In this document: piece after piece, positions 40,481-50,637 of the stretch
Layout of the letters: each line of letters opens with the position of its first letter
Numbering within the stretch: the first letter of the stretch is position 1
NCBI RefSeq assembly: GCF_000017625.1
Contig: NC_009712.1
Coordinates: 1,426,001 to 1,490,000 of the forward strand
Direction of reading: 5' to 3'
DNA from: Methanoregula boonei 6A8
GTDB lineage: Archaea; Halobacteriota; Methanomicrobia; Methanomicrobiales; Methanospirillaceae
Length of the DNA: 64,000 bases
Position numbers and translations under genes: made by a program
Notes under the pieces: model-generated
Databases searched by the model: none
Seen by the model: the letters and a program-made list of their open reading frames with translations, nothing else
What the model was told of the DNA's origin: nothing

Positions 40481-42070
40481 TCATAAGGAGGAGGCCGTCT
40501 TGTTTGCAGTCGCGTTCGAACCCGTAAGTGTCGCTGTGGGTGTTGCCGTCAGTATGGCAACAGTCGGAGTCGGGGTTGACGCGGCGGGAAGCGAGAACTG
40601 CATATCAACCGTTCCGTAAGGTGCCTTTGTGGATGCTGTCGTTACTACGGCGCCATCCTTGTACAGGACAACTTTGAGCTCGTCTCCCGATCCATCGGTC
40701 TTTTTCAGGGTAATTGCCACGATCCCGTCAACCGTCGGAATACGGTAGAAATGATCCCCGGTATCACTGACCGAGGCCTGGGATCCCGGAACACCTACCT
40801 GACCGGAGTACGTATTGTCGTACGTGACTTCGGCCCAGACCCCGCTCTGGGGAACAAGGCTTTGCGGGGTAGTGGTGACGGCAACTGTGGTGACGACAGA
40901 AGTGGGGACTGGCGTGGGTGTCGGGGTCGGGGTTGCAGTAGTGGGAACAGGTGTTGGTGTCGGGGTCGGGGTCACGACAGCAGACTTGTTCAGGGCCGGG
41001 AGGACAAACAATCCCCCGGCAACAACCGCAATTACCAGAATGACGATGATCGCGGCCGCAAGAATCTTCCTGCCGCCTTTACGGGGTGCTGCAGGAACCG
41101 GCGGGATAGGGGGAGCCGGAGGGATGGCGGCGGCCGGGATCTGCTCACCTTCTGCAGGAGCGGGTGCAGCAGTCGCTGCCGGCGCTATTCCTTCAGAGGG
41201 GACGACACTCTCCTGGGCCGGCGCTGGTGTCTCAGGAGCCGGGACAGAAGACTCTGCTTCACGAGTTGCCGGTGCCGGGACAAACGGCTCGGGAACCGCC
41301 GGTGAAGATCCTGTGCGGGGGACGGAATCTTCAATCAAAGGTTCAATCGAGTGGATGATCTGTTCTATGGGCCGCCCTCCGCTGATTTTACGCTCGCCCG
41401 CTCCGGCCGTGGCTGCCGGGGCAGTGGCAATCTGGGGCGCCGCAACAGGAGCCGGCACTTCTTCTGAGGGTACGTTGACCCGGGTACCGCACCGGTTGCA
41501 GAAGGTCGATCCCGGGGGGATGCGGTTGCCGCACCGCCCGCAGAACGATCCCTCGGGAAGCGAGGTGGACTCCACCGGCTTTGGGGGAAGGTGGCTTGTG
41601 TCCACCGTAATCCTCTTGATGGGCCCGGCAATCTCGATCTTCTTTTTGATACCGGGTGTGACCCCGTGATCCGGGCGGGATTCAAACGCAGCCGGCGCCC
41701 CGGTGGCAAAATCACCGGGCTGTGATGCCGCTTCAGAAATGTACTTCCGCAGAGATTTTGCCCATTCATCGGCCTCGCGCCGCCGCTCTCCCGCGCTCTG
41801 CCGGACAAACGTGAGCGCCATCTCCCGGGTCTCTGCTGCATCTGTCTGGATCGTCAGCGTGATGACCGGATCGCGAATGGCATTCTCGCTCGCCATCACG
41901 TTCCGGATGGAAAAAAGCGTGATCTGCTGGGTCGGAACTACATTCTTCTCGCTGTCAATAATTATAAGACGACGATTGGTGAGCACCAGTTCGAACGGCA
42001 CGGATTTGACCTTCACATGCTGTGCCGTCAGGACAATGGACTCATCGCTCTTGAGATCGGGATAGCCCAT
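40481..42070 (-). CDS. Zinc-ribbon membrane protein with PH-like N-terminus
   Basis: 529 residues from ATG 42070; an in-frame GTG at 42079 is less likely. N-terminal PH-like domain (~1-100: ESIVLTAQHVKVKSVPFELVLTNRRLIIID), then a zinc ribbon FCGRCGNRIPPGSTFCNRCGTRV (~180-200), a long Pro/Ala-rich cytoplasmic linker, one membrane helix (ILAAAIIVILVIAVVAGGLFVL, ~335-356), a TPTP-rich outer linker and an exported beta domain (VWAEVTYDNTYSGQVG...). It thus links an inner sensor-like part to an outer domain. A T/P-rich tail ends the protein. Role unknown; paired with the PEGA protein downstream. Confidence 0.8.
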   Translation of the reverse strand: MGYPDLKSDESIVLTAQHVKVKSVPFELVLTNRRLIIIDSEKNVVPTQQITLFSIRNVMASENAIRDPVITLTIQTDAAETREMALTFVRQSAGERRREADEWAKSLRKYISEAASQPGDFATGAPAAFESRPDHGVTPGIKKKIEIAGPIKRITVDTSHLPPKPVESTSLPEGSFCGRCGNRIPPGSTFCNRCGTRVNVPSEEVPAPVAAPQIATAPAATAGAGERKISGGRPIEQIIHSIEPLIEDSVPRTGSSPAVPEPFVPAPATREAESSVPAPETPAPAQESVVPSEGIAPAATAAPAPAEGEQIPAAAIPPAPPIPPVPAAPRKGGRKILAAAIIVILVIAVVAGGLFVLPALNKSAVVTPTPTPTPVPTTATPTPTPTPVPTSVVTTVAVTTTPQSLVPQSGVWAEVTYDNTYSGQVGVPGSQASVSDTGDHFYRIPTVDGIVAITLKKTDGSGDELKVVLYKDGAVVTTASTKAPYGTVDMQFSLPAASTPTPTVAILTATPTATLTGSNATANKTASSL

Positions 42071-42174
42071 GATTACCACGTACTGTAGTAGTACTGTTGC
42101 ATCACCTTTGACAAAAAAGTATGTATAAAAAAATCTGCCCCGGTTCCCGGATATCTGAAAGGATACCCGAGAGA

Positions 42175-43452
42175 TCAGAGGAACTCCCGGTCGTTCATGT
42201 ACTGGCGGAGCACGTCAGGGATAGTCACGGATCCGTCCCGGTTCTGGTAATTTTCAAGAATGCAGCGCAGCGCCCGTGACGTGGCAATCGCTGTCGAATT
42301 GAGGGTGTGGACCAAGTGCTTTGTCTCGAAGTTCTCCTTGTCCCTGACACGGATATTGAGGCTCGCTGCCTGGTACGAGGTACAGTTGGAGCAGGAGACC
42401 ACTTCCTTGTAAGCGTTCTCTCTTGGCATCCAGGCTTCAATGTCGTACTTCTTTGCGGCGACCGTCCCGATATCTCCCGTGCAGATATTGACCACGTGGT
42501 AGGGAAGGCCGAGTTTTGTAAAAACCTCTTCGGCATTTGCCAGGAGTTCCTCGTGGATCTGCCATGAATTCTCAGGCCTGCAGAAGACAAACTGCTCGAT
42601 CTTTGTGAACTGGTGGACGCGGAAAAGACCTTTGGTGTCAAGCCCGTGAGCCCCGATCTCGCGCCGGAAGCAGGGTGAGAGCCCACACAGGCGCAGAGGG
42701 AGATCTTTTTCCTCAAAGATTTCATCCTGGTACATCGCGGCTATCGGGTGTTCGCTTGTGGCTATCAGGTAGGTATCGTCGCCATCGATCTTGTACATTA
42801 CCTTCTCGAAATCGTCGAGGTCGGTCACACCCTCATAGGAATCCCGTTTGATCATGAATGGTGGGATCACGGGGGTAAATCCCTTTTTCCCGAGAAGGTC
42901 AAGGGCAAAACGCTGGAGGGCAAGGTCGAGCATCACCAGCCCCCCTTTCAGGAAATAGAACCCGGCACCCGAGGTCTTTGCGGCCCGCTCAAAGTCCGCC
43001 CACCCGTTGTCGGCAGCAAGCTGTCCGTGGTTCTTGAGCTCGAAATCGAACGTGCGCGGCGTTCCCACGCGCCGGATCTCCACGTTCTCGGTATCGTCCT
43101 TTCCTTTGGGCACACTTTCGTGGAGGATGTTTGGCAGGCGCATGAGCCGGGTGCGGATAATCCCTGATATCTCCTCCTGCTCGGCATCATTTGCCTTGAT
43201 CTTCTGGGGGAGCTCGGCAGCCTCCCGGAGTAAGGGTGCTGCATCCTTTCCCGTCTTGCGCGCCTCGTTGATCTCGCGGGCGATCGTATTTCTCCTGCGC
43301 CGCAGCTCATCGGTCTGCACTTTAAGCTCGCGGGAACGTGCATCCTTTGCAAGAATTTCGTCCACCCACGCAATCTTTTCCGGTGTGCCGCGTCTCTCCA
43401 GATCGGCTTTCACGACATCCGGGCTTGCCCGTACAAACCTGATTTCAAGCAT
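42175..43452 (-). CDS. serS: Seryl-tRNA synthetase (common bacterial/archaeal type)
   Basis: Charges tRNA-Ser. The N-terminal coiled coil (~28-110: RSRELKVQTDELRRRRNTIAREINEARKTG) precedes a class II core: motif 2 in LCGLSPCFRREIGAHGLDTKGLFRVHQFTKIEQ and motif 3 in LNSTAIATSRALRCILENYQ. It is the ordinary SerRS, not the divergent form of some methanogens. GTG 43467 is in frame, but ATG 43452 (MLEIRFVRASP) sits nine bases behind GAGG and matches the family start; 425 residues. tRNA-Ser is encoded elsewhere in the window. Confidence 0.96.
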   Translation of the reverse strand: MLEIRFVRASPDVVKADLERRGTPEKIAWVDEILAKDARSRELKVQTDELRRRRNTIAREINEARKTGKDAAPLLREAAELPQKIKANDAEQEEISGIIRTRLMRLPNILHESVPKGKDDTENVEIRRVGTPRTFDFELKNHGQLAADNGWADFERAAKTSGAGFYFLKGGLVMLDLALQRFALDLLGKKGFTPVIPPFMIKRDSYEGVTDLDDFEKVMYKIDGDDTYLIATSEHPIAAMYQDEIFEEKDLPLRLCGLSPCFRREIGAHGLDTKGLFRVHQFTKIEQFVFCRPENSWQIHEELLANAEEVFTKLGLPYHVVNICTGDIGTVAAKKYDIEAWMPRENAYKEVVSCSNCTSYQAASLNIRVRDKENFETKHLVHTLNSTAIATSRALRCILENYQNRDGSVTIPDVLRQYMNDREFL

Positions 43453-43728
43453 TTTCTCGTACCTCACCCGGGACCCTGTCGATGCATATCGAAAGCCCCG
43501 GCTGCTGCTTTCCTGCTAAGAGGTATTCTCTCTTTTCCCTTATTATGCTTCAATGCATGCGGAGCACCACACTTGGGAAGCCAGGTGTGAAAAAAGGCAC
43601 CTTTGCAGGAATATTATTTTAAATCGGACAATCTGGATTTCGTTTGAATAAAGGAGACAGAATAGCGCTATTGAGAGGAATTGATGACCATGATATTCCC
43701 TAAAACTCAAAAAAACGTCTTCAGGGTC
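43453..43728. other. Gap between serS and the metal-transport operon
   Basis: CACACTTGG-GAAG-CCAGGTGTG (about 43566-43587) forms a 9-bp stem with one G-T pair, with a purine run after it. The rest is AT-rich and shows no coding character. It contains the serS promoter on the minus strand. Confidence 0.3.
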
Positions 43729-43873
43729 GATATTATTATATGAGCCCGGTGTCCACCCATTAGGCATCGGCCTTGCGGGCCGTCCTGCCCGCGCCTTTGA
43801 ACTGCCATTCGGATCGAATGGGGGGATGACAGACACAATGCACTGAATTGAACCATGAGTGTGGAGGAGCGTT
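43729..43873 (+). promoter_or_regulatory. Promoter and structured leader of the Nramp/MgtE-like operon
   Basis: CGATATTATTATATGAG (43729-43744) is a good TATA box, putting the transcript start near 43765. The ~110-base leader holds two perfect hairpins: GCGGGC-CGTCCT-GCCCGC (43775-43792) and CCATTCG-GAT-CGAATGG (43805-43821). They precede the GGAGGAG ribosome-binding site. A metal-responsive RNA element is possible but no known riboswitch consensus was recognised. Confidence 0.45.
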
Positions 43874-45142
43874 ATGGATTTTTTGTCTAAGTTCTATTTT
43901 AACTACCGGAGAATCATCAAAACCATCCAGATCTACCTGCTGCTGGCCGGTCCCGGTCTTATCGTCATGATTGCGGACAATGATGCCGGGGGTATCACCA
44001 CCTATGCGGCAACCGGGGCAAAATTCGGGTACAACCTGATCTGGTTTTTGATCCTGCTTGGACCTGTTGCCTACTTTGTCCAGGAGATGACCGTACGGCT
44101 CGGGGCCGTAACCAAGCATGGGCATGCAGAGGCGATATTTTCCGCGTTTGGTTCGTTCTGGGGCTGGTTCTCCCTGTGCGATCTGACCCTGGTGAACTGG
44201 CTTACACTCGTGACCGAGTTTATCGGGATGACCGCAGGCCTTGCAATATTCGGTATGCCCCCAGTACTAACGGTCCTTATCGTAATCTGCATCATGATGG
44301 CGATTGTCGTTTCGGGCCGGTACTGGACCTGGGAGAAGCTCACGATGGTGCTCTGCCTTGTGAACCTGATCTATATTCCCGCGGCATTCCTTGTTCACCC
44401 TTCCCTTGACCAGGTGATCCATAACGGATTTATCCCCAACTTCCCGGGCGGCTTTAACGGGGAACTGTTCTTTTTCCTGATGGCAAACATCGGTACCACA
44501 ATCGCTCCATGGATGATCTTCTTCCAGCAGAGCGCGGTCGTGGACAAGAACATGAAGGAGAAGGATATCCCCTGGGGCAAGTTTGACACAGTGGTCGGGG
44601 CCATCTTCACGGTTCTTGTTGCAGTCTTTATCATTATTGTGACCGGGACTTTGCTCAAGGGGATGGACGTGGAGAGCGCTGCACAGGCCGCAGGAATCCT
44701 GATGGGCGTACACCCATGGGTGGGAACGCTGCTTGCCATTGGCCTCTTCGATGCAGGATTCCTCGGTGCACTCTGTATTGCACTCACGAGCTCGTGGGCA
44801 TTCGGCGAGGTTTTCGGGTGGGCACACTCCTTAAACTACAAGGTAAAAGAGGCAATCTGGTTCTACCTCTTCTACTTCTTTGGACTTGCAACAGCAGGAT
44901 GTGTCGTCCTGATCCCCGGCGCCCCTCTCGTGCTTATCACACTTTTTGTCCAGGTCGTTGCAGTGACCCTGCTCCCGGCAGCGCTTGTGTTTTTGATCAT
45001 CCTTCTCAACAACGAGGAAATCATGGGGAAATACAAAAATACCCTCTTTGACAATATCGCAAATATTACCATCGTGACGGTCATCATTGTCATATCCTCG
45101 TTATATGGGATCAGCACGTTATTCCCGAACATGTTCGGGTAG
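43874..45142 (+). CDS. Nramp-family transporter with altered metal-binding motifs
   Basis: 422 residues with about eleven helices; LLLAGPGLIVMIADNDAGGITTYAATGAKFGY is the TM1 region and MANIGTTIAPWMIFFQQSAVVDK the TM6 region of the Nramp (SLC11) fold. Classical Mn/Fe Nramps have DPGN in TM1 and MPH in TM6; here these read DAGG and APW, losing the Asn and the Met that select transition metals. Absence of the Met is recalled as a feature of magnesium-transporting relatives (NRMT). ATG 43874 follows GGAGGAG. The downstream MgtE-N/CBS protein supports magnesium or another hard cation. Substrate inferred. Confidence 0.88.
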   Translation: MDFLSKFYFNYRRIIKTIQIYLLLAGPGLIVMIADNDAGGITTYAATGAKFGYNLIWFLILLGPVAYFVQEMTVRLGAVTKHGHAEAIFSAFGSFWGWFSLCDLTLVNWLTLVTEFIGMTAGLAIFGMPPVLTVLIVICIMMAIVVSGRYWTWEKLTMVLCLVNLIYIPAAFLVHPSLDQVIHNGFIPNFPGGFNGELFFFLMANIGTTIAPWMIFFQQSAVVDKNMKEKDIPWGKFDTVVGAIFTVLVAVFIIIVTGTLLKGMDVESAAQAAGILMGVHPWVGTLLAIGLFDAGFLGALCIALTSSWAFGEVFGWAHSLNYKVKEAIWFYLFYFFGLATAGCVVLIPGAPLVLITLFVQVVAVTLLPAALVFLIILLNNEEIMGKYKNTLFDNIANITIVTVIIVISSLYGISTLFPNMFG

Positions 45143-45157
45143 GGGAGGCAAAAGAAT

Positions 45158-45379
45158 ATGGCATTTAACCTGGAAAACGGTATCATCGAACCGGTCAAAT
45201 CGAGTGTTGCAAACGGCATAGCCGCGGTCAGGGCAATCAACAAAAAATACGAACACCCGAGGATCACCATGTCACCCGGGGTAAAAGCAGCCCTTCTCCT
45301 CCTGCGGCTGTACCTGATCTTCCTTGTGCTCCTTTTGGTTTACAAGTTCTATACAATCATAACAGGAGGATCGTTATGA
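45158..45379 (+). CDS. Small one-helix membrane protein of the transport operon, 73 aa
   Basis: MAFNLENGIIEPVKSSVANG and a cytoplasmic segment to ~45 precede a single membrane helix ALLLLRLYLIFLVLLLVYKFY, then a short end (TIITGGSL). GGGAGGCAAAAGA stands before the ATG. It begins 15 bp after the transporter and ends overlapping the next start as ATGA, so it belongs to the operon. It could tether the regulator to the transporter or act as an accessory subunit. No family recognised. Confidence 0.75.
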   Translation: MAFNLENGIIEPVKSSVANGIAAVRAINKKYEHPRITMSPGVKAALLLLRLYLIFLVLLLVYKFYTIITGGSL

Positions 45380-46653
45380 CCCCAAACGAGACTGCCACAG
45401 GGGCGGCAAAAGCGGCGGACAAGGAGATCTTCCTTTCCGAAATCCTCGGTATCCCGGTCCTGAGCAGAGAAAAGAAGATAGGAACTTTAAGTGACCTGAT
45501 CATCGTGGAGACCGCGAAGATCCCTGAGGTAAAATCGCTCTACGTCAAGAGGTCATTTGGGTACCCCAGCCTGATCATTCCCTGGGAGAACGTGGTGGAG
45601 CTGGGGCACCGGGTCATTGTCGATATTCCGGCACTTGAACCCTTTGAGGCTAATCCCCCTGAGGACGCACTCCTCCTCAAGGACTATGTAATGGATAAAA
45701 AAGTCCTTGATCTTGAAGAGAGCGAGGTAGAGGTAGTGTACGATATCCGCCTGGTCCACCGGAACAAAAAACTCTATGTAACGGACGTGGACACGGGCAA
45801 GTCTGCCCGACTGAGGAGATTTGGCCTGAAAACACTCTCCCGGGTATTCTCTTCTGAGGAACCCGAAGACCAGATGATCTCCTGGACCTATATCCAGCCG
45901 CTCCCGACCAACATCGGGAGCTTCAAGGGAGATGTGAAACTCAAGGTCTTAAAGGAGAATCTTGCGGAGATCCACCCGGTGGATCTTGCCGATATCATTG
46001 AGGAACTCGATCACGACCAGCGGATGGCGGTCTTTGCCTCTCTCGACAATGAACACGCATCAGATACCCTTGAAGAGATCGAACCCAATGTCCAGCGAGA
46101 CCTTATTGCCTCGCTCGACATTGCAAAAGTGGTGCCCCTCATCAGCACCATGACCCCGGGGCAGGCTGCCGATGTCCTCTCGGCGATCCCGCACTCGGAG
46201 GCTGAGGACATCCTTGAGGCCCTCACGCCGGAAATGACAAAGAAGATCCGGGCCATTACCGAGAAGCAGGAAGAGAAGGTGATCCACTACACCACCCAGA
46301 AGATCCTCAAATTCCTGCCGGAAACACTTGTCGAGTACGTGCAGAACGATTATCCTAACCATGCCCGGGGAAAAGATGTCATCATGTACATCTACGTAGT
46401 GGATGCACAAGAGCACCTGATGGGCGTGGTGGACTTAAAAGAACTCCTTATTGCCGATGACAAGGCCCCGCTTTCGGCTATCATGTCCGAGAACGTGATC
46501 TCGGTAAATGCCGAGAGCACGCTCAAGGAGGCCTCGCAGGAGTTTGAGCGGTATGGCTTTCGGGCCCTGCCGGTTACCGATGACGAAGAGCATCTTATCG
46601 GGGCCATCCCCTACCGCGATGTGATGGATCTCACCCATCACCTCCTTGAATAA
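45376..46653 (+). CDS. PRC-barrel/MgtE-N/CBS domain regulator
   Basis: 425 residues, soluble. Two PRC-barrel-like domains (IFLSEILGIPVLSREKKIGTLSD; LLLKDYVMDKKVLDLEESEVEVVYDIRLV) come first, then an MgtE intracellular N domain (~185-310: LKENLAEIHPVDLADIIEELDHDQRMAVF...MTPGQAADVLSAIPHSEAEDIL) and a CBS pair (YIYVVDAQEHLMGVVDLKELL; FRALPVTDDEEHLIGAIPYRDVM). The MgtE membrane domain is absent. In true MgtE the N and CBS parts sense Mg2+ and gate the pore, so here they may gate the Nramp-like protein encoded 230 bp upstream. Family architecture is clear; the partnership is inferred. Confidence 0.9.
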   Translation: MTPNETATGAAKAADKEIFLSEILGIPVLSREKKIGTLSDLIIVETAKIPEVKSLYVKRSFGYPSLIIPWENVVELGHRVIVDIPALEPFEANPPEDALLLKDYVMDKKVLDLEESEVEVVYDIRLVHRNKKLYVTDVDTGKSARLRRFGLKTLSRVFSSEEPEDQMISWTYIQPLPTNIGSFKGDVKLKVLKENLAEIHPVDLADIIEELDHDQRMAVFASLDNEHASDTLEEIEPNVQRDLIASLDIAKVVPLISTMTPGQAADVLSAIPHSEAEDILEALTPEMTKKIRAITEKQEEKVIHYTTQKILKFLPETLVEYVQNDYPNHARGKDVIMYIYVVDAQEHLMGVVDLKELLIADDKAPLSAIMSENVISVNAESTLKEASQEFERYGFRALPVTDDEEHLIGAIPYRDVMDLTHHLLE

Positions 46654-46685
46654 TTTTTTTAGGGTCCGGGGGAGAGAACAACACA

Positions 46686-47318
46686 ATGGACCCGGCACCC
46701 AAAACTGACCCCTGGGAATATGAGTACTCCAGGAAAGGGCGCCTCTGGGGGGGGGCAGTCCACCACCTGCCGGAGATTCCTCGTGAAGGACGCATCCTTG
46801 AACTCGGGTGCGGCGATGGGAAAACCTATCGGACCCTGCTGGAACGGGACTATGAGGTCATCGGGATCGATAGGGCAGCGTCAGCCCTGAATCTCTGCCG
46901 GTCATTGGCTCCTTTGGGATCCGGCGCACAATTTGCGCGAGCCGATGCCTGCAGCCTGCCATTTGCGGACGGATCATTCTCCAGCGTTATTGCATTCCAT
47001 GTGATCGGCCACTTGCCGGATGAGGGGCGGGCACGTGCCGCACGCGAGGCGTCCCGTGTGATACGAAATGGCGGCACGCTCTTTTTTTCCGGTTTTTCCT
47101 GCGAGGATTTCCGTGCCGGGGCCGGCTCGGATACCGAACCGGGAACCGTGCTGCGCAAAAACGGGATTGCAACCCATTACTTCTCCGAAGAAGAAGTACT
47201 CGGCTTGTTTTGCAGGCTGCATCCCCTCTCATGTATTACCCGACACTGGGTAATGACCATACGCGGACAGCCCCTCCCACGGGCCGAGATTGCAGCCGCA
47301 TTTACAAAAACCTCCTGA
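46686..47318 (+). CDS. Class I SAM-dependent methyltransferase
   Basis: 210 residues. Motif I ILELGCGDGKTYRTLL, motif II VIGIDRAASALNLCRSL, acidic motif ARADACSLPF and post-motif FSSVIAFHVIGHLPDEGRARAAREASRVIRNGGTLFFSGFS identify a UbiE/Methyltransf_11-type fold. The C-terminus has TVLRKNGIATHYFSEEEVLGLF, found in several archaeal members. No specific substrate can be read. It begins 32 bp after the regulator gene and might be on its transcript. Confidence 0.9.
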   Translation: MDPAPKTDPWEYEYSRKGRLWGGAVHHLPEIPREGRILELGCGDGKTYRTLLERDYEVIGIDRAASALNLCRSLAPLGSGAQFARADACSLPFADGSFSSVIAFHVIGHLPDEGRARAAREASRVIRNGGTLFFSGFSCEDFRAGAGSDTEPGTVLRKNGIATHYFSEEEVLGLFCRLHPLSCITRHWVMTIRGQPLPRAEIAAAFTKTS

Positions 47319-47413
47319 ATATACAAAGGAATAGACAAAATTCCGGCGTATCATAGAGGAATCCTTAAATGGGCTGGCAACCTTATTTTCTCCCGCACAG
47401 GGAAGTGCATTTT

Positions 47414-47968
47414 ATGAGAAAAGAAATTCTTCTTGTCCTGTTTGTGTGCAGTGTACTGATTGGATGTGCAATGGCAGCCGTACCGGATGCCAACCAGACA
47501 GTCGCCGCAAATACTACGACCACAGTTACGACCGCGCCGCAGCTTATCGGTGGCAACATGGGAACTTACCTTGTCACTTCAAACGTTGAAGGGGCAAATG
47601 TGACCTTCGATTCAGATTACAAAGGTATCATTACCGGCGGCCAGCTCGCGGTACCCGTATACACGACCGGCACGCCCTACCGGACGATCACCGTACAGGC
47701 ACCCGGATACCAGATTGCTACCGTGAACATCACCCAGTACCCGGCAGCGAACCAGACCGTTGACGTCCCGGTGACGCTTGTTCCGCTCGCAGCGGCCAAC
47801 ACCACTGAGGTGCAGGCAAATGCAACGGCACCGGCTACCGTTTCCACGGAAATGACAACTGCCATGGCCCCGGTCTCACCGGCCCCGACCAAGTCCGGCA
47901 GCCTGCCGTTTGCCGCCCTTGGCGCGTTTGTCGTACTTGGGATATTTGCAATCCGGTCACGCCGGTAG
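47414..47968 (+). CDS. Secreted membrane-anchored protein with PEGA-like domain
   Basis: 184 residues from ATG 47414 (MRKEILLVLF), which starts the signal peptide; the longer frame from 47369 would put 15 residues before it. After the signal (ending CAMAA) a Thr/Asn-rich segment leads to a PEGA-like domain: GTYLVTSNVEGANVTFDSDYKG...YRTITVQAPGYQIATVNITQYP. A Thr/Ala-rich stalk and a C-terminal helix (LPFAALGAFVVLGIFAI) ending RSRR follow. Typical small surface protein of this lineage. Confidence 0.8.
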   Translation: MRKEILLVLFVCSVLIGCAMAAVPDANQTVAANTTTTVTTAPQLIGGNMGTYLVTSNVEGANVTFDSDYKGIITGGQLAVPVYTTGTPYRTITVQAPGYQIATVNITQYPAANQTVDVPVTLVPLAAANTTEVQANATAPATVSTEMTTAMAPVSPAPTKSGSLPFAALGAFVVLGIFAIRSRR

Positions 47969-48094
47969 ACAATCCTCTTTTTTCTTTTCCGTTCGGATCT
48001 TTGCGGATGCGGGCGGAATGGCAGTACTGATGGTGCGATTGCACAGAGTACCTCATCCAAGCCTTCATCTTTTGCGAACTGCAACAAAATATCC

Positions 48095-48894: not shown

Positions 48895-50277
48895 TTACTG
48901 CCTCCTGAATACCACTATCCCTGCAACCACCGCGAATCCGGCAAGGGCAACAGGGAAATCATATCCCGGAGCTTTTTTTGTCGTGGCTGTGGTGATGATG
49001 GCGTTCTGCTTTGCAAGCCAGTCATCAACTGATGAAGTGGTTGTGGCAGAGGTAGTGATCGCGTAGGTCGGGGCAGCGGTAAACAGCGGGGTGACGGCAG
49101 AAGTTGGCAGGGGAGTGGCAACATATGTCGAAGATATTGCCGCTGAACTTGCAGTAATATAATCTTCTTCTGTGGTCACATTGCTCCCCTCACCATTCGT
49201 GGCGGTAAAGGTGACCGTATACACTCCGGATACCGAGTAGGTATGAACCGGATTCTCAACAGAGCTTACGTACCCGTCACCAAACTCCCAGTACCACGAG
49301 GTCGGTGTGTTGGTTGACGTGTCATTAAACTGGACTGCAAACGGCACAGTTCCTGATGAGACATTACTGGAAAAACTCGCTACGGGTGTTGCGTTTGCAG
49401 TCACTGTGATGTAATCCGACACATAGGTGACGTTGCTTCCCGCAGAATTTGCTGCCGTGAGGTAAACCGTGTAGGTCCCTGCGGAAGTATACGTATGTAC
49501 CGGATTCTCGGTGGTACTGGTATACCCATCGCCAAAGACCCAGCTCCACGAGGTCGGCGTGTTGGTCGATGTGTCGTTGAACTGGACCGCGAACGGAAGC
49601 ACTCCCGAGGTAACATTTGAGGTGAAACTTGCTACCGGAGTGGTTGTCGCCGAGCTCACCGTAATGACCTTGTAACTTGTTGACTGTCCTGCTGAATTCC
49701 CTGCGGTCAGGTACACGGTATATGTCCCTGCCGAGGTATATGTCCACGACGGACTTTCCGAGGTACTCGTATTTCCGTCACCGAAGATCCAGCTCCATGA
49801 CGTAGGAGAGTTCGTAGAGGTATCGGTGAAAGTGACCGTAAGCGGTGCGGTACCCGATGTCGCGGATGCAGAAAAGGAGGAGACCGGAGTAGTCACTGCG
49901 CTTTTCACGGTTATGGTTTTGGTAGTTGAGTTGCTCCCGAAGGAGTTGGTGGAGGTAAGTGTCGCGGTGTAGGTTCCTGCTGAGGTGTACGTCCACGATG
50001 GGTTTTCCGTGGTACTTGTATTCCCGTCACCAAAACTCCAGCTCCACGAGGTCGCATTCGCGGAAGCATCGGTAAAAGTAACCGTAAGCGGTGCGGTACC
50101 CGATGCTGGCGAGGCAGTAAAGGAGGCAACCGGGACGGTTGTGTAGGTTTCTGCTGCCACCGGCAGGATCAGGCAAAGGAGACCCAGCAGAAAGATGCAT
50201 CCCGTAAGAAGGCCGTATCCGGCAAACGCAAGGGATCTTCCGCAATCAGTTTTCTTCTTTTTTATGAGGCAAATCAT
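48895..50277 (-). CDS. Secreted anchored protein with four PKD domains
   Basis: 460 residues from ATG 50277 (MICLIKKKKTDCG); the frame extends upstream but the signal sequence starts here. A hydrophobic signal (LLTGCIFLLGLLCLILPVAA) is followed by four PKD domains, each with W-W-x-FGDG (SWSWSFGDGNTSTTENPSW, SWSWIFGDGN, SWSWVFGDGY, YWEFGDGYVSSVENPVH). A Ser/Thr/Ala stalk and a C-terminal helix (FPVALAGFAVVAGIVVF) ending RRQ anchor it. Unlike the 11-PKD protein at 27909 it is membrane-held. Probable surface or adhesion protein. Confidence 0.87.
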   Translation of the reverse strand: MICLIKKKKTDCGRSLAFAGYGLLTGCIFLLGLLCLILPVAAETYTTVPVASFTASPASGTAPLTVTFTDASANATSWSWSFGDGNTSTTENPSWTYTSAGTYTATLTSTNSFGSNSTTKTITVKSAVTTPVSSFSASATSGTAPLTVTFTDTSTNSPTSWSWIFGDGNTSTSESPSWTYTSAGTYTVYLTAGNSAGQSTSYKVITVSSATTTPVASFTSNVTSGVLPFAVQFNDTSTNTPTSWSWVFGDGYTSTTENPVHTYTSAGTYTVYLTAANSAGSNVTYVSDYITVTANATPVASFSSNVSSGTVPFAVQFNDTSTNTPTSWYWEFGDGYVSSVENPVHTYSVSGVYTVTFTATNGEGSNVTTEEDYITASSAAISSTYVATPLPTSAVTPLFTAAPTYAITTSATTTSSVDDWLAKQNAIITTATTKKAPGYDFPVALAGFAVVAGIVVFRRQ

Positions 50278-50637
50278 GGTACTCATTCCTGGGACGCAGA
50301 GACGGGGCAACTCTGCACAGGGCAGTAAGCCCACCGGTTGCATCTGTGTGGAGGAGGGTATTCCCCGGGGTCGGTTTTATTCCCGGGTTTTCCTGCAGGG
50401 TGATAGCGATGGGGAGAATATAAATTGGAATTACGCTGGAAAGGCAGGACTTGCGCTGCCAGGACAACGATTGTACCAGCAGGTTAAGCATATCCCCAGA
50501 CAGGATTTTTGGCCGGAATGTTTTTTATCCACTGGGTTAAGTGAAAATTTCCCGGCAGTCATTGTCAGGGAAAGCGGAATATTGAAAAATGGATTTTTCC
50601 TTATAAGTACGCTCATCCGGAGAAAGTCTACAGATCA
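50278..50637. promoter_or_regulatory. Promoter region of the four-PKD gene, DUF2115 3' flank
   Basis: On the minus strand AATTTATATTC (about 50419-50430) is a TATA candidate for the PKD gene, giving a leader of roughly 120 bases. The rest, toward the DUF2115 stop at 50638, is AT-rich without coding character. Confidence 0.35.

Follow-up and report, generated by a model that had tools for sequence, protein, structure and literature searches.

An NRAMP-related cation transporter of Methanoregula boonei encoded with a conserved one-helix protein and a detached MgtE-type sensor

The systems closest to the locus described here are the bacterial NrmT transporters of Shin et al. (2014; PMC4072509). 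According to the accessible text of that paper, most NrmT genes adjoin a gene for the N-terminal cytoplasmic domain of MgtE, the systems are often under an M-box riboswitch, and either feedback regulation or a chaperone role was proposed for the MgtE fragment. Two C. acetobutylicum NrmTs gave Mg2+ complementation; the A. capsulatum protein fully rescued Mn2+ uptake and rescued Mg2+ uptake only at low millimolar Mg2+, and co-expression of the A. capsulatum MgtE fragment in B. subtilis brought no gain in Mg2+ rescue. Structures are available for EleNRMT (PDB 7qia, 7qic, 7qji and 7qjj; PMC8806188), an NRAMP-related Mg2+ transporter (NRMT) with 11 helices and no described helix subunit, which carries Mn2+ as well as Mg2+. 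The metal-site signature of NRMTs consists of DxxG in helix 1 and TxxA/T in helix 6 (PMC8806188). The cytosolic domain of MgtE (PDB 2yvy, 2yvx) comprises an N domain followed by a CBS pair, and the Mg2+ sites of the Thermus protein (PMC5882242) served for our residue mapping.

The window, that is, the whole stretch of 64,000 nucleotides of M. boonei 6A8 DNA that was analysed, contains three closely spaced ORFs on the + strand at 43874–46653, which encode a transporter, a one-helix protein and a soluble MgtE_N protein. Their features are as follows:

43874–45142, + strand: NRMT, 422 aa (Pfam Nramp, E 6.6e-73; EleNRMT 7qia, 224 bits; tree)
43982–43993, + strand: helix-1 metal-site motif D37-A-G-G40, DxxG (alignment; signature per PMC8806188)
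44495–44512, + strand: helix-6 metal-site motif T208-T-I-A-P-W213, TxxA (alignment; GTTIAPW also in EleNRMT)
45158–45379, + strand: 73-aa membrane protein with one helix, proposed to be a detached helix subunit of the NRMT (alignment, phylum scan, profile match to the C-terminal tails of long NRMTs)
45236–45349, + strand: conserved core of the one-helix protein, residues 27–64, with INxKYxxP arm and LRxYL...YKF helix (alignments)
45376–46653, + strand: soluble PRC-MgtE_N-CBS sensor protein, 425 aa (Pfam; AlphaFold2; Foldseek)
45421–45633, + strand: PRC-barrel-like domain of the sensor, residues 16–86 (Pfam PF05239, E 1.1e-4; found in 50 of 72 family members)
45970–46263, + strand: MgtE_N domain, residues 199–296, with D266 corresponding to TtMgtE D95, Mg6 (Pfam, E 1.3e-21; residue mapping)
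46279–46632, + strand: CBS pair with D415 corresponding to TtMgtE D247, Mg4 (Pfam, E 4.1e-15; NCBIfam mgtE, 186–420)

The ORFs and Pfam domains agree with the preliminary description of this DNA, which had recognized an Nramp-fold transporter, a one-helix protein and a PRC-MgtE_N-CBS protein lacking a pore. The ATGA coupling that it assigned to the downstream genes holds for genes 2 and 3, which overlap at 45376–45379, but not for genes 1 and 2, which lie 15 bp apart. A GTG is located in frame 15 bp 5' of the transporter's conserved ATG. The genes of the trio, their order and their sequences are kept in archaea and in several bacterial phyla, so the arrangement is not a product of chance. Compared with the systems of Shin et al., the locus shares an NRMT with a neighboring separate gene for an MgtE cytosolic domain. 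It differs in being archaeal and in having no M-box: an Rfam scan of 42000–48000 gave chance-level matches only, to the M-box or to any other element. The gene order is also different, since the fragment gene comes first in A. capsulatum and the order here is NRMT-helix-sensor, and the accessible text of Shin et al. makes no mention of a one-helix gene (PMC4072509). Further along the window, at 48895–50343 on the − strand, the ORF list includes what looks like a surface protein, with several PKD-like repeats that resemble one another.

Judged by its sequence, the transporter is an NRMT. It lacks the DPGN and MPH motifs of canonical Nramp/MntH (SLC11) proteins and carries DAGG and APW in their place, with D37 and G40 in helix 1 and T208 and A211 in helix 6 matching the published signature. 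The preliminary description had noted these replacements; the motifs are indeed present, but the change is the normal signature of the family, given that DxxG and TxxA have been published for NRMTs and that EleNRMT has the same metal-site letters. EleNRMT (7qia) is also the closest solved structure, with a score of 224 bits compared with at most 54 bits for canonical Nramps, and the two folds superpose with a Z of 47.5 and an rmsd of 3.1 over 391 aligned residues at 33% identity. Two trees, of 76 and 57 rows and with only three canonical Nramps and one characterized NRMT among them, split the NRMTs from the canonical Nramps with 100/100 support. The phylogenetic comparison suggested earlier thus places the transporter with the NRMTs and apart from Mn/Fe Nramps. 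By analogy with EleNRMT, 11 membrane helices are expected, and as an NRMT the protein would be predicted to transport Mg2+ without coupling to H+.

Several other observations were made among the transporter genes. A distinct Pfam Nramp group (L223–L236, L238–L244 and L216) has AxxMPW but no DxxG motif and probably corresponds to the outgroup described elsewhere as 'orphan'; its loci contain no sensor or helix gene within flanks of 1.5 kb (L223–L236, L238–L244) or 4 kb (L216). In Methanoregula sp. SKADARSKE-2 (L048, CP121470.1, 4438–5703; also G015), the NRMT frame contains one in-frame TGA beside intact helix and sensor genes, pointing to a pseudogene, recoding or a sequence error. An NRMT in two pieces was found at G002:C6:3663–4869, in the same genus as L097.

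The soluble protein has the N domain and CBS pair of the MgtE cytosolic domain in the same order. MgtE cytosolic domains occupy Foldseek ranks 1–10, and they are also its best matches in sequence, with an E of 5.9e-37 in the profile comparison. The AlphaFold2 model (pLDDT 88.7) contains two small beta barrels, the MgtE_N helices and the CBS pair. The preliminary description referred to PRC barrels in the plural; one is supported by Pfam, with a match that stands just above the cut-off, while the second (residues 109–170) is visible in the predicted model only and has no Pfam match. Apart from these extra PRC-like barrels in front, the sensor is unlike MgtE in having no plug helix and no pore, its chain stopping behind the CBS pair. 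A search of this genome and of 23 others from the genus recovered no MgtE pore (PF01769). The earlier claim of MgtE_N and CBS domains without an MgtE pore is thereby confirmed, and for the genomes sampled the idea that the sensor is the detached half of a genomic MgtE was rejected.

The residues corresponding to D95 (Mg6) and D247 (Mg4) of Thermus MgtE are invariant in 73 of 73 sensors. Other Mg2+-site residues are replaced: the sensors of the window clade have Asp at E59 (Mg7) and Gly or Ala at D91 (Mg4), and they lack the plug-helix residues. Position D250 (Mg5) is mostly Asn in this clade, although the window protein itself has Asp there. In the other clade, 50 of 51 sensors retain D91. This combination of two invariant aspartates, changes at E59, D91 and D250, and an absent plug helix makes metal sensing plausible, at a site that appears to have been remodelled. 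In L097 (3455–4743; G304), the sensor gene is split by a frameshift.

Transporter and sensor genes are closely associated across genomes. In a phylum sample of 393 genomes, all 24 NRMTs (23 genomes) have a sensor beside them, and 24 of the 25 full-type sensors have a neighboring NRMT; in Omnitrophota, NRMT adjoins sensor in 45 of 45 cases. Two gene orders occur, NRMT-helix-sensor in the window clade and sensor-NRMT in the other clade. These counts bear out the co-occurrence anticipated in the preliminary description, but only in part: a sensor accompanies most of the surveyed NRMTs, whereas 13 helix-bearing NRMT loci (6 with a fused and 7 with a separate helix) and the Nitrospirota paralogues L198 and L199 have no sensor nearby. 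L201 is a lone sensor, and in the broader set of relatives, on plasmids and in one proteobacterial class, a sensor is frequently missing from the flanks (1.5–4 kb). The detached MgtE-N partner is present as described but not novel, and the core idea of a transporter-sensor pair is likewise not new, since pairing and feedback regulation were already put forward in the accessible text of Shin et al. (PMC4072509). As a separate observation, Uliginosibacterium gangwonense (L060, 5567–7683) has a 5'-truncated clade-1-type sensor located after a truncated response-regulator gene and before an MgtC-family gene; no NRMT of the window type was found in that genome.

The third component, the 73-aa protein encoded between the other two, is conserved in Methanomicrobiales, Omnitrophota, Nitrospirota, Phycisphaerales and Margulisbacteria. 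Within the 393 phylum genomes, matches above 80 bits occur in exactly 12, the same genomes that carry the NRMT clade of the window, and in all of them the order is NRMT-helix-sensor. The gene also lies unannotated between the transporter and the CBS gene on IncHI plasmids of Citrobacter and Serratia; these plasmids are conjugative, and the trio (L202, 10001–12713; L203, 7001–9713) is situated there in a transposon-rich metal-resistance region. Sequence searches identified no family in Pfam or NCBIfam and nothing convincing in the PDB, and a literature search, mostly of open papers, found neither a small NRMT subunit nor a PRC-MgtE protein. The one-helix protein thus looks like a new, conserved and unnamed family, as far as could be found. 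MgtS and MgtR provide a precedent: these small one-helix membrane proteins act on the Mg2+ transporter MgtA, which belongs to a family unrelated to NRMT. Across the small-protein family, the net charge is +3 to +11 before the helix and 0 to +1 after it, so the N-terminus is probably inside.

A clue to the nature of this protein is provided by long NRMTs of 540–580 aa, which occur in Actinobacteria and other bacteria, namely in Leifsonia, Rhodococcus, Arthrobacter, Cellulomonas, Alicyclobacillus, Burkholderiales and Methylobacterium. Their NRMT core is followed by a C-terminal extension made up of one more hydrophobic segment, the loop WRMPPL and an LRGYL...(K/R) helix related to the small protein, so that an LRxYL helix encoded by its own gene in the window is here fused to the transporter. 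The small-protein profile matches the last 55 residues of long NRMTs with a probability of 90.7, an E of 1.3e-6 and a score of 33.9 (hhalign). In a sliding-window control on the same nine long NRMTs, the tail window reached a probability of 83.2 and a score of 29.9, while the other 25 windows stayed at noise level, with scores of 10.6 or less. L49, R50 and Y52 of the small protein are invariant in the alignment of separate and fused forms, and a model built from both forms found one further fused (L217) and five further separate helices (L218–L222), all in genomes left out of model building. The N-in orientation indicated by the charges fits the fused form: there, the additional hydrophobic segment would bring the arm to the inner side of the membrane.

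We further tallied helix and sensor in each group; the counts include a few repeated or truncated loci. In the window clade, 29 of 29 loci have both a sensor and a helix encoded by its own gene. An intermediate group contains 10 fused helices (4 with sensor) and 7 separate ones (none with a sensor nearby). The other NRMT branch has a sensor in 52 of its 54 loci and a helix in none, and no conserved helix-like small gene was seen among 51 loci of that branch; the MPW 'orphan' relatives also lack the helix (0 of 22). The helix is thus found without the sensor, in fused and separate form, and the sensor without the helix, indicating that the helix follows the transporter independently of the sensor. 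In the tree, the fused forms, the separate forms without sensor and the window clade fall together with moderate support (93/75), while EleNRMT sits in the helix-less branch (98/97). The small helix therefore looks like the separate-gene form of the C-terminal helix of long NRMTs, and we read the two forms as having arisen once, with some lineages carrying the helix fused and others encoding it in a separate gene. Both the helix subunit and its fused form look new. A predicted structure of a read-through NRMT-helix fusion agrees with EleNRMT in fold and aligned the added helix with helix 12 of 12-helix Nramps. The added part was covered by five alignment rows only, and this placement would require the N-terminus of the helix to lie outside, in conflict with the charge pattern; chain order probably produced it as an artefact, and it was given no weight.

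The identities of the three proteins, the conserved operon, the helix homology and the partly kept Mg2+ residues are read from the sequences, and on this basis we consider it somewhat more probable than an even chance that the locus encodes a three-part cation importer, composed of an NRMT, a helix subunit and an MgtE-type sensor that inhibits the transporter when Mg2+ is sufficient. In such a system, the NRMT would carry a divalent ion, most likely Mg2+. The 73-aa protein would form a single N-in helix belonging to the transporter and would display its short INxKYxxP arm in the cytosol. The PRC-MgtE_N-CBS protein may bind Mg2+ at the interface of its N and CBS domains, with the CBS pair possibly accommodating an adenine nucleotide; at sufficient cytosolic Mg2+ it would close up and inhibit the transporter by contacting either the transporter itself or the helix arm. 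The substrate, the physical complex and the direction of regulation are what we infer here. Counting against this model, besides the A. capsulatum and plasmid findings discussed below, are the replacements at D91 and, mostly, D250 in the sensors of the clade, their missing plug-helix residues and the lack of an M-box or other Rfam element in the vicinity of the operon.

Each of these elements has a competing explanation. The same complex could serve Mn2+ or another transition metal, sensed by the MgtE-like protein. We regard this as rather unlikely, though it draws on the full Mn2+ rescue by A. capsulatum NrmT beside Mg2+ rescue only at low millimolar Mg2+ (PMC4072509, accessible text), on Mn2+ transport by EleNRMT and on the surroundings of plasmid and megaplasmid relatives. 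There, heavy-metal resistance genes (ArsR/SmtB with a P-type ATPase, pco genes further off) adjoin the locus, and others neighbor cadR with CDF genes or ArsR with a P-type ATPase, which leaves room for another ion. Speaking for Mg2+ are the exact NRMT site, the sensor's retention of residues from a Mg2+ channel, and the neighbors elsewhere: corA lies divergently adjacent to the operon in five archaeal relatives (G015/L048, G020, G025, L097 and L098), and mgtC neighbors occur in several bacteria, downstream of the NRMT in Leifsonia and Acidiphilium. We therefore take Mg2+ as the likely substrate in M. boonei. It is quite improbable, in turn, that the one-helix protein stands outside the transporter and instead anchors the soluble sensor to the membrane or serves it as an adaptor. 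Its conserved cytosolic arm and the position of its gene between the other two, with the ATGA overlap with the sensor gene, would suit such a role. However, long NRMTs carry the helix in the same chain as the transporter, and 6 of 10 have no sensor nearby; seven further NRMTs have a separate helix and no sensor nearby, and 52 loci of the other branch combine a sensor with no helix. The profile match to the long-NRMT tails, together with those seven loci, is the reason why we favor a detached helix of the transporter over a sensor anchor as the reading of this protein.

The role of the sensor is the remaining point of divergence. Instead of gating, the MgtE-like protein could be a metal-binding chaperone, as also offered by Shin et al., or a nucleotide or Mg2+ sensor acting elsewhere; the missing plug-helix residues and the lack of improvement upon fragment co-expression in B. 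subtilis (PMC4072509, accessible text) are compatible with this. The near-strict adjacency to NRMT in two gene orders and two NRMT branches argues the other way, as does the correlation among the pairwise distances of the three proteins (r 0.62–0.80), which indicates co-inheritance rather than contact. We consider a non-gating role unlikely and retain inhibition of the transporter by the sensor as our working model. The preliminary description's inference of a magnesium or other hard-cation transporter gated in trans by an MgtE-type sensor is thus supported in part, with Mg2+ as the presumed substrate and gating in trans as a putative mechanism.

The role of the MgtE fragment beside NRMT genes is a puzzle from the literature, and with the small gene, overlooked in annotation, a third conserved part now joins it. 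More broadly, we tentatively propose, with somewhat less than even confidence, that one NRMT branch is heteromeric, consisting of a transporter core with a one-helix subunit that is obligate, whether fused or encoded separately, and of a detached MgtE-type sensor docking onto it. If this is true, the result is a three-part importer in which a domain that gates a channel elsewhere has come to control a carrier unrelated to that channel. The results suggest that, in the window's branch, assays of the transporter and sensor alone would omit a part of the system, and the natural fusions and defined parts offer material for testing how a Mg2+ sensor may regulate an NRAMP-type carrier.
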